Positions 40,428 through 43,585 of a stretch of DNA of 64,000 nucleotides are shown piece after piece (the first letter of the stretch is position 1; each line of letters starts with the position of its first letter). The notes beneath the pieces are model-generated. The model saw nothing but the letters and a program-made list of their open reading frames with translations, made no database searches and was not told the origin of the DNA. Both the position numbers and the translations under genes were made by a program. The stretch comes from Sulfuricurvum sp. (lineage in GTDB: Bacteria; Campylobacterota; Campylobacteria; Campylobacterales; Sulfurimonadaceae), in the NCBI RefSeq assembly GCF_028713855.1, contig NZ_JAQTNN010000001.1, positions 62,001 to 126,000 of the forward strand, written 5' to 3'.

Positions 40428-40442
40428 TAATAATGCTTATCA
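40428..40442. promoter_or_regulatory. Candidate Fur box 1, between desulforubrerythrin and the iron-uptake cluster
   Basis: TAATAATGCTTATCA matches the 7-1-7 Fur consensus TGATAATnATTATCA at 12 of 14 fixed positions. It lies just upstream of the -35 at 40446. The same core, AATAATGCTTATC, recurs before the siderophore receptor gene. Confidence 0.6.
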
Positions 40443-40445
40443 CTA

Positions 40446-40489
40446 TTGACAAGCCATATCCCTTTTTGATATTATGATACTAATTATCA
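40446..40489 (+). promoter_or_regulatory. Promoter and Fur box 2 for the HemP/TonB-receptor operon
   Basis: TTGACA (40446-40451) and TATTAT (40470-40475) are spaced 18 bp. TGATACTAATTATCA (40475-40489) overlaps the end of the -10 and matches the Fur 7-1-7 consensus at 13 of 14 fixed positions. Fur-Fe binding there would block transcription. The ribosome-binding site AAAAGGAG follows at 40492. Confidence 0.75.
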
Positions 40490-40506
40490 ATAAAAGGAGT
40501 TTCGGC

Positions 40507-41295
40507 ATGCGAAAGATCGGATTTACCCTCACGAATCATCGTACAAAAGAGATATTGCCTCACAGTTACCATATCCATTCTCTAAGTGATCGACGAAAGA
40601 TGTTTTTTTCAATGCTTAATACGATGTTGCCTCAAAAGGCTCAGATGAACGTAAGTCATTGTAAAAAAGTGAAGCAAGATGTTTATACATTATTGCGTGA
40701 GAAAGTGATGTCATTTTTACCGATGCATCGCTTGGGTCCTGAGATTTCTCAACCGATTATGAGGATTCTTATTCATGAGAGCGGTGTGATCAACCGGTTT
40801 CTCTATCGCATCGATACTCCTCTGGGGGATTATCTTTCTTCACGGGGCTACAAAGGGATTTTGTATTCAACCTCCGGATTCGATCATCCTGCAACAGCAT
40901 TGGCTGCATTAATGATGCAGAATGGGAAAATCGAGATGATGCTTGATTTGGACGAACTCTTTACCCAAACGGTCTTTAAACGGATCAAACCACAAGACGG
41001 TGCTGTGATTACGCGTGAGAATAGTTTTATTCATATCTCTTCGGGTGGACAGATTACACGTCTGCATCCTAGATGGAAACGGATGAATTCTGATTCTTTG
41101 GCTCTACGTCGCAATCATATTGAGACGGCTTTTGATGAACTAAACCGTGATGCAATTGATTCGTATTATCTCATCTACCCCAAAATGGATGACTTTACAC
41201 GTCATATCCTTATTAAAAATTCAGATGAAAATCCGATCAAAATTATTCCCTATTCATTTACATTCTGCACAAAGGTAAAACATGGAATCCAATAA
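40507..41295 (+). CDS. Uncharacterised 262-aa protein of the iron/heme uptake operon
   Basis: A soluble protein with no signal peptide and no family I recognise. It is rich in His, Met and basic residues (LTNHRTKEILPHSYHIHSL; VSHCKKVKQDVYTLLREKVM), with a central run LGDYLSSRGYKGILYSTSGFDHPATALAALMMQNGKIEMMLDLDEL. ATG 40507 follows GGAG at good spacing. It directly follows a Fur-regulated promoter and precedes hemP and a TonB receptor, so a cytoplasmic role in heme or iron handling is possible, but this is inference from position only. Confidence 0.7.
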   Translation: MRKIGFTLTNHRTKEILPHSYHIHSLSDRRKMFFSMLNTMLPQKAQMNVSHCKKVKQDVYTLLREKVMSFLPMHRLGPEISQPIMRILIHESGVINRFLYRIDTPLGDYLSSRGYKGILYSTSGFDHPATALAALMMQNGKIEMMLDLDELFTQTVFKRIKPQDGAVITRENSFIHISSGGQITRLHPRWKRMNSDSLALRRNHIETAFDELNRDAIDSYYLIYPKMDDFTRHILIKNSDENPIKIIPYSFTFCTKVKHGIQ

Positions 41296-41352
41296 TGTGA
41301 ACAAGCCGGTCGGTAATCTTAAAATACATCGTCTCATACGGAGCGGACGAGC

Positions 41353-41523
41353 GTGTTAAAAGAAGAACAAGTAATTGTTTCGTCATCTTCAACTGAGTAT
41401 AATGTCACGGTTATAGACGCTAAAGTGCTGTTTAAAAATGATAATTCGATACGTATCGTTCATGGCAATGAAATCTATACCTTGAGAATTACCAAAGGCA
41501 ATAAGCTTATTCTCACCAAATAA
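41353..41523 (+). CDS. hemP: HemP-family small protein
   Basis: A 56-aa protein starting with GTG at 41353. The C-terminal half is the HemP signature: VLFKNDNSIRIVHGNEIYTL, then LRITKGNKLILTK. HemP proteins are encoded at the head of heme-uptake operons and in some bacteria are needed for expression of the heme receptor. Here the gene directly precedes a TonB-dependent receptor gene. The N-terminus is poorly conserved, and the ribosome-binding site is weak, so the exact start is uncertain. Confidence 0.82.
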   Translation: MLKEEQVIVSSSSTEYNVTVIDAKVLFKNDNSIRIVHGNEIYTLRITKGNKLILTK

Positions 41524-41557: not shown

Positions 41558-43585
41558 GTGTTTTATCGTCCCCTGATACTTTTTACCTGTACCTTTTCTC
41601 TTGCATGTGCACAGGAGATTATTCAACTCGATAAAATCGCAGTCGAAGAGAGCTATAGCGTCATCGAAGAGCGTAAAGACAATTCCATAGCTAAACGTAT
41701 TATCAAAGGTGAAGAACTGACTCAATACGGTGATATGAATGCTTTGGAGATACTTAAACGTACACCGGGCGTGACGATCAGCGATGGCAAGGGAAAAAAA
41801 GGTTCTCCCGGTAAGGGGTACACGAAAGTGTTGATCGACGGAGAAGAGGTATCTTCGACAAAACGGGGTAATCCGCTGGAGCAGATCAGCCCCGAGATGA
41901 TTGAACGTGTGGAAGTTATGACCAACGGTTCAGCCGAATATACCGCCGAATCAATGGGGGGAATTGTCAACATCGTCCTTAAAACCCCCTCTTCGGAAAC
42001 CAAAACAATGGCTAAACTCACTGCAGGAGCCTATGCAGGTGAGCCGATGAGCTCACTGTTTGCACAGCAAGAGGGGAAGAACGGGAAACTCTCTTACCTT
42101 TTTAATACGACTCTCGCGGATAATTCGCAAGACGATACCACCTCAATCCATACCAATACCTATGATGAAAATACCGATACCGACGGACGCTTCCGATCCC
42201 TCAGTTTGAATGGTAAACTCATCTATACCCCCTCATCGAGCGATAAATATATGTTTGACGGCGCTCTCAATCGAAGTGACTACCATAAAAACAGTCTCAA
42301 AAACCGATACGGCGGTGTCAATGAAGTTATTCACCAAAGTGATGACGGAGATGCTTTAATGGTTTGGAGCAAGTTATCGGGTACACATAATCTCTCGGGA
42401 ACCGAGCTCGTTGAGTGGAAACTCAAATATCATGAAAACGATTCAGACGGGATAACCCGCAGTGATAACGGGACAATACTGCGTGAGCAGAATGATGAAG
42501 GCTCATTTCGGGTGCTTGGCGCAGAGGGAAGTTACTCACTGGCGTTAGATGAGCATTTTATCAAAACAGGGGCTGAGATCAAGCAACTGCATCAGCGCGA
42601 TGATGTTGTCAACTATACGAGCGGTATAGTGAGCTCGAACGATCATCAGCGTCTTCGTGAAGACAAAGGTGCATGGTATGTTCAAGATGAAATCAGTGTC
42701 GGTGAAAAAATGGTTATCACTCCAGGGATTCGTTTTGAGCGATCGGTTCGGCATTTTGATCAGACGGTCAATGTCGGTTATGTTGCCCCTTCGCTTCATG
42801 CCCTTTACAAACTGAGTGAGAACGATAACCTTCGTGCAAGCGTTGCCAAAACGGTGAAATTGCCCCGTTTGAGTGAACTTTCCGCTTCCATAGACAGTTC
42901 ACTGGATCAAAATGATCTAAATCACCCCGATGTCACCGGAAATGCAAATCTCAAAGAGGAAAAAGCCCTCAGTTACGAGGTGCGTTATGAACACTTTTTT
43001 GACGATAAAGGGATCGTGAGTATCGGCGGATTTTATCGCAATATCAGCGACAAGATTGAAAAAATGACCACCTTTGAATCGGGGCGATACGTACAACGTC
43101 CTTATAACTCGGGAGAGGGGAAACTGTGGAGTTTGGAATTGGAACTCAAAAAATCGCTTGATCGTTATGTGAGTGGTTTGGGAATTTTTGGAAATGCGAC
43201 GTTACAAGACTCATCCCTGGTTAGTAATGGGGTGAAGCGTACTATCAAAGGAACCAACGATTATCTCTACAATGTCGGGATCGATCACACCCTCAAAGAG
43301 TATCGTATCACCTACGGCGCGGCGTATCGCTATGTCAGCGGATACGATGACCCTATCGATGAGAACGGTGTGTCTGAATCGCAAGCGGGGTACGGAACCC
43401 TCGATTTGTATGCGACCAAACGGTTGAGTCCGACCTATAAGCTGGGGCTAAACCTCAAAAATATTACCCAAGAGAGTATCACTACCACCTCTAAACGCTA
43501 TAGCGGAGGCGTTCTAAGTGAAACCCAGATCGACAATGAAAACTCCCGATTCCATTTCCTCGTTACTCTAGAGGGGCGCTGGTAA
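41558..43585 (+). CDS. TonB-dependent outer-membrane receptor
   Basis: A 675-aa receptor with GTG start and AAGGAAT upstream, and a signal peptide (about 1-18, ending ACA-QE). The plug domain spans about 45-155 (MNALEILKRTPGVTISDGKG, KVLIDGEEVSS, IERVEVMTNGSAEYTAESMGGIVNIVLK), followed by a 22-stranded barrel ending in a terminal aromatic (LVTLEGRW). The ligand is unknown; hemP upstream favours heme, but the FRAP/NPNL heme motifs are not seen, so a siderophore is possible. A strong terminator follows. Confidence 0.88.
   Translation: MFYRPLILFTCTFSLACAQEIIQLDKIAVEESYSVIEERKDNSIAKRIIKGEELTQYGDMNALEILKRTPGVTISDGKGKKGSPGKGYTKVLIDGEEVSSTKRGNPLEQISPEMIERVEVMTNGSAEYTAESMGGIVNIVLKTPSSETKTMAKLTAGAYAGEPMSSLFAQQEGKNGKLSYLFNTTLADNSQDDTTSIHTNTYDENTDTDGRFRSLSLNGKLIYTPSSSDKYMFDGALNRSDYHKNSLKNRYGGVNEVIHQSDDGDALMVWSKLSGTHNLSGTELVEWKLKYHENDSDGITRSDNGTILREQNDEGSFRVLGAEGSYSLALDEHFIKTGAEIKQLHQRDDVVNYTSGIVSSNDHQRLREDKGAWYVQDEISVGEKMVITPGIRFERSVRHFDQTVNVGYVAPSLHALYKLSENDNLRASVAKTVKLPRLSELSASIDSSLDQNDLNHPDVTGNANLKEEKALSYEVRYEHFFDDKGIVSIGGFYRNISDKIEKMTTFESGRYVQRPYNSGEGKLWSLELELKKSLDRYVSGLGIFGNATLQDSSLVSNGVKRTIKGTNDYLYNVGIDHTLKEYRITYGAAYRYVSGYDDPIDENGVSESQAGYGTLDLYATKRLSPTYKLGLNLKNITQESITTTSKRYSGGVLSETQIDNENSRFHFLVTLEGRW

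Follow-up and report, generated by a model that had tools for sequence, protein, structure and literature searches.

A gene within a 64,000-nt stretch of Sulfuricurvum DNA, referred to below as the window, encodes a 262-amino-acid protein (X262; positions 40507–41295, forward strand) that belongs to a family, hereafter X, homologous over both of its halves to McrC, the nuclease (endonuclease) subunit of the McrBC restriction system. With a probability of roughly 55%, we read the X family as catalytically dead McrC-like proteins domesticated into the iron-starvation response, nucleic-acid binding being their likeliest action. A narrower version of this reading is possible but more tentative: that Campylobacterota, including Campylobacter jejuni, took over a disarmed restriction subunit, probably on a single occasion, to regulate the switch from ferredoxin to flavodoxin during iron starvation by binding nucleic acid. 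Flavodoxin is an electron carrier that replaces the iron–sulfur protein ferredoxin.

The X262 reading frame is a real coding gene under purifying selection, with a dN/dS of 0.13 against its counterpart in a sister genome (G046, locus L017), a pairwise average that gives no date for the loss of flavodoxin described below. All control elements lie on the forward strand. The ribosome binding site (AAGGAG, 40494–40499) follows a σ70-type promoter (40446–40475), assigned by consensus match and composed of TTGACA (40446–40451) and TATTAT (40470–40475) with an 18-nt spacer. Two Fur-box-like sites, like those of the relatives called as consensus matches, flank this core: site A (AATAATGCTTATCACTATT, 40429–40447) overlaps the –35 element and agrees with the consensus GATAATGATAATCATTATC at 14 of 19 positions, while site B (TATTATGATACTAATTATC, 40470–40488) overlaps the –10 element and agrees with the Fur consensus at 15 of 19. 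Fur-like sites of such strength occurred by chance 0–3 times per 64 kb in mononucleotide-shuffled windows, and a site of the same kind is found upstream of the X gene in the sister locus. Judged from these matches, the X262 operon carries Fur-type control sites. The initial annotation had correctly described a strong Fur box overlapping the –10 element, to which site A adds a second, and had rightly placed a protein devoid of recognised domains at the head of the operon. Its two downstream genes were likewise borne out, namely hemP (41353–41523, forward strand; PF10636, E 5e-16) and a TonB-dependent receptor gene identified by Pfam search (41558–43585, forward strand).

X262 itself has no match in Pfam or NCBIfam at E ≤ 10, whether to HugZ, HmuS or any other known heme-handling family. 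When the PDB was queried, a single-sequence search gave no meaningful match and a profile search only chance matches (E 0.02 or worse); sequence alone thus did not reveal McrC in this database. Nor do Pfam and NCBIfam recognise the family as McrC, with no McrBC match at E ≤ 10 in Pfam for X262 and six relatives. Direct comparison of profiles built from 36 X sequences and from 20 McrC sequences of the same phylum, by contrast, yielded a probability of 96, a score of 71 and, for a single comparison, an E-value of 3e-9 in hhalign, vs. scores of at most about 19 for the controls (reversed McrC, eight column-permuted and 25 unrelated profiles). Partial X profiles also matched McrC, be it with the window's own family alone (probability 89) or with the other families alone (91.5). 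The N-terminal half of X matched only the N-terminal half of McrC (probability 85), and the C-terminal half only the C-terminal half (96). In HMMER searches with a McrC model, X members took the top ranks and outscored some 1,100 decoys (best E 1.7e-6); reciprocal searches placed the members of the other family above the decoys in both directions (best E 1.7e-6 and 1.8e-4). Mrr (15) and SfsA (17), tried as alternative homologues in hhalign, gave no profile match.

The two families also share recognisable motifs. These are an EILPK-type motif near the N-terminus (EILP at residues 15–18 of X262), a helix–strand motif that reads MLDLNELF in X and LLFDMNxLF in McrC (extending to LFDMNxLFE), and a terminal strand with YLVYPK in X and YLIYPK in McrC. 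X262 can accordingly be divided into an N-terminal McrC-like part and a C-terminal, inactivated PD-(D/E)XK-like domain (about residues 127–257). Five of its residues are invariant (P225, F230, K245, P248 and Y249).

Structure prediction pointed in the same direction. An AlphaFold2 model of X262, built from an alignment of eight sequences and of moderate confidence (mean pLDDT 66.8), had a McrC chain as its best Foldseek match (7vsr_M, E 2e-4, probability 1.00). Upon realignment, it superimposed on McrC chain 6ut7_G with a Z score of 12.9 over 248 residues (rmsd 4.5), covering X262 residues 1–257, vs. a Z score of 8.0 for the best non-McrC entry; many other PD-(D/E)XK folds align structurally with the C-terminal part at Z scores of 6–8. 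A second model, of an X relative, found no Foldseek match at E ≤ 0.001, and its realignment placed two McrC chains at the top (Z 7.3 and 6.2 vs. 4.5 for the next). X262 thus resembles McrC (PF10117; 6ut7, 6hz4, 7vsr) in overall fold over about 250 residues, while the X family differs in its Fur-type control, its linkage to flavodoxin and a similarity that lies below Pfam detection.

X also differs from McrC in having lost the catalytic residues. In E. coli McrC, the catalytic residues are Asp244, Asp257 and Lys259 (PMC6624300), and in our alignment the McrC proteins of the phylum keep them as PD and DxK. X262 has F174, H187 and R189 at these positions, and across the family they are occupied by Y/S/F/I, Y/M/H/L and S/R/F, respectively. 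Not one of the 36 X members carries an aspartate at either catalytic Asp position, and only two carry a lysine at the third; the QxxY motif is lost as well. We therefore rejected the notion of X as an active McrC nuclease. The alignment further revealed that about 85 residues from the middle of McrC are absent from X, between X262 residues 69 and 112. The McrC stalk enters the McrB ring (PMC6624300), and the missing segment presumably corresponds to this docking stalk. No McrB GTPase was present among the named operon genes at the window or the sister locus, where some neighbors are unannotated. In 25 of the 45 X-carrying genomes, McrC is missing altogether, so that X presumably does not act as part of a McrBC complex encoded by its host.

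Within the taxonomic family to which the X262 genome belongs, 16 of 228 genomes (this one included) carry the protein or a relative, the better matches sharing 31–79% identity. A profile search extended the family to 136 of 397 sampled Campylobacterota genomes and 27 of 68 genera. To characterize the gene neighborhood, we surveyed 51 X-family loci with downstream sequence, where the figures are counts rather than probabilities since related genomes are not independent. Flavodoxin was the gene directly downstream of X in 45 of these loci, often overlapping it, and a DUF2325 gene lay at most four genes upstream in 28, both neighbor identities having been checked by Pfam; ferritin occupied this upstream interval in five. 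Fur-like sites matching at least 14 of 19 positions preceded 36 of the 51 X operons, vs. 87 of the 778 further genes that these loci contain. Some X relatives (L028, L023) lack an adjoining flavodoxin gene.

At L078 and L079, two or three tandem flavodoxin paralogues immediately follow the X gene. In genus g39 (L088, L100 and the G330/G478 matches), the N-terminal half of X is absent or interrupted by stop codons, and the 148-amino-acid C-terminal domain alone is open, with flavodoxin still adjoining. Some f10 genomes likewise retain an open frame for the C-terminal 148 residues only, with flavodoxin downstream. One copy, closest to Sulfurimonas sequences and 76% identical to a fragment from that genus, lies on a possibly misbinned contig labelled Desulfurellales (L065).

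The conserved gene order leads to C. jejuni. In two loci, the DUF2325–X–flavodoxin arrangement adjoins catalase and ankyrin genes (L119, L120), and for L120 catalase, ankyrin, DUF2325 and flavodoxin were all confirmed by Pfam. C. jejuni Cj1384c is a 104-amino-acid DUF2325 protein whose gene cluster also includes katA (Cj1385) and Cj1386, which encodes an ankyrin protein (PMC9426514), and Cj1383c is listed beside Cj1382c, or fldA (PMC9612045). Based on this shared order of DUF2325, X and flavodoxin beside catalase and ankyrin genes, the X262 family is apparently the Cj1383c family, an identity that rests on gene order. In line with the Fur-like sites found here, cj1383c–cj1384c have been reported to be highly iron-responsive and to be derepressed in a fur mutant, the derepression of Cj1383c being strong both there and when iron is limiting (PMC4491227, PMC3815106). 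The window copy differs from this type in that it adjoins hemP and lacks both flavodoxin and DUF2325, so that of the Cj1383c-type order only X remains.

Comparison with the sister genome clarifies how the window locus came to differ. There, the genes run from DUF2325 through ferritin, X, flavodoxin, a micro-ORF, hemP, receptor, second receptor, PKHD hydroxylase, exbB and exbD to tonB. Alignment of both loci revealed that the flavodoxin gene between X and hemP is missing from the window, and that the ATG of the window's own micro-ORF occupies the position of the flavodoxin ATG in the sister genome. DUF2325 is absent from the entire window genome. The sole good match to the sister's flavodoxin in that genome (G000:C12:78439–78933; L112) is 37% identical and resides within a nif cluster; because of this nitrogen-fixation context, the ordinary flavodoxin seems to have been lost from the genome. 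X262 was nevertheless kept and hence cannot depend on that particular flavodoxin. As flavodoxin stands between X and hemP in the sister, and most of the other inspected hemP operons of the Sulfuricurvum type lack X, the direct contact of X with hemP is a local, secondary arrangement.

The micro-ORF (MESNNVNKPVGNLKIHRLIRSGRAC; 41282–41359, forward strand) comprises 25 amino acids, had previously gone unlisted, lies between the X262 gene and hemP and overlaps both, its stop overlapping the hemP start codon. A conserved micro-ORF of ~25 codons overlaps or abuts the hemP start at all nine Sulfuricurvum-type hemP loci examined (the window, L017, L090, L091, L093, L094, L095, L097 and L108), and is absent where exbD precedes hemP. 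The encoded peptides end in HRL(I/L)R(S/R)G(R/C)(A/P/T)C-stop, more loosely so in L108, and several of these micro-ORFs have a Fur-like site of their own. The element resembles a leader micropeptide with translational coupling.

With regard to function, we rank non-cutting nucleic-acid binding first, docking onto flavodoxin second and heme handling third. When iron is scarce, Fur would release the X operon, and the very basic X protein would be made together with flavodoxin. X would cut no DNA and form no partnership with McrB; instead, it would most likely serve as a regulator or adaptor that binds nucleic acid but leaves it uncut, e.g. on the DNA or mRNA of its own operon. Docking onto the acidic flavodoxin would be the next likeliest action. 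All 36 X members have a pI of 9.1–10.2 (vs. a mean of 4.2 for flavodoxin) and a mean net charge of +16 (vs. –19). In X262, the basic excess is mostly N-terminal (net +10 in the N half vs. +2 in the C half), and the 148-residue relatives keep the C half only. The basic charge by itself does not distinguish nucleic-acid from flavodoxin binding.

The strongest competing explanation, albeit an unlikely one, makes X262 a pseudo-nuclease that binds protein: its basic surface would sit on the acidic flavodoxin to protect, load or steer it under iron limitation. In favor of this explanation are the opposite charges and the position of X immediately upstream of flavodoxin in most loci, yet co-transcription is no proof of contact, and the relatives at L028 and L023 do without a flavodoxin neighbor. 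The window genome itself speaks against this explanation, having kept X while the linked flavodoxin disappeared and the remaining relative is a distant one in the nif cluster. This retention provides a mild argument for nucleic-acid binding over flavodoxin docking.

The initial annotation had instead suggested a new heme- or iron-handling factor, acting with HemP and the receptor. Fur-type control, the presence of hemP and a TonB receptor gene downstream of X in both the window and its sister genome, and a C. jejuni table tying Cj1383c to haemin uptake through co-expression (PMC6338021) fit this suggestion. Across the family, however, it finds little company: hemP occurs in 27 of the 397 sampled genomes in which X was counted 136 times, and among the 51 loci it lies near X in only four, while a TonB receptor is no more than eight genes away in six. 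The expected co-occurrence with hemP and receptor across Campylobacterota was thus not seen. The abundance of potential ligands that had drawn attention to X262 is genuine (13 His, 14 Met and 2 Cys), but H233 is the only one of these 29 residues that the family conserves (34 of 36 sequences), and both cysteines vary among the 36 sequences. Moreover, the fold search that had been proposed as a check returned McrC, as did the profile comparisons; clear similarity to such a protein, of unrelated known function, is what the initial annotation had named as refuting its suggestion. X262 is therefore probably not a heme-handling protein, and we rejected a role in heme handling or iron storage for lack of conserved ligands; as an explanation of the locus, a factor of this kind appears improbable.

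Least probable is that X262 belongs to an antiphage or RNA-targeting system akin to the CoCoNuTs, in which inactivated PD-(D/E)XK McrC homologues are kept for likely nucleic-acid binding (PMC11090510), as the genes for CoCoNuT McrC homologues are invariably accompanied by those for other nucleases and McrB-type GTPases, whereas X lacks the presumed stalk region, has flavodoxin, DUF2325, ferritin and catalase as partners alongside Fur-type sites and, unlike a defence island, retains its gene order across families. Type II and III CoCoNuTs nonetheless provide a precedent for non-cutting nucleic-acid binding by X, sharing a McrC-derived fold, a lost catalytic motif and a suggested affinity for nucleic acid (PMC11090510). 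They differ in that they comprise McrB-type GTPases, HEPN nucleases and coiled coils, whereas X is short and encoded within an iron operon.

While the fold family is already known, the link between an iron-regulated Campylobacterota gene and McrC appears to be new, at least in the literature searched: we found no paper connecting McrC with Campylobacter, Fur and flavodoxin, and no predicted fold or function for Cj1383c, and a census of McrBC systems mentions neither flavodoxin nor Campylobacterota (PMC11090510). In C. jejuni, a major food-borne pathogen, Cj1383c counts among the genes that respond strongly to iron; its identity as a disarmed McrC would offer a first structural handle on this family and connect iron and redox homeostasis with a lineage of defence nucleases. 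The window locus, in which X was kept after the loss of flavodoxin, constitutes a natural experiment that may help separate the nucleic-acid from the flavodoxin reading.
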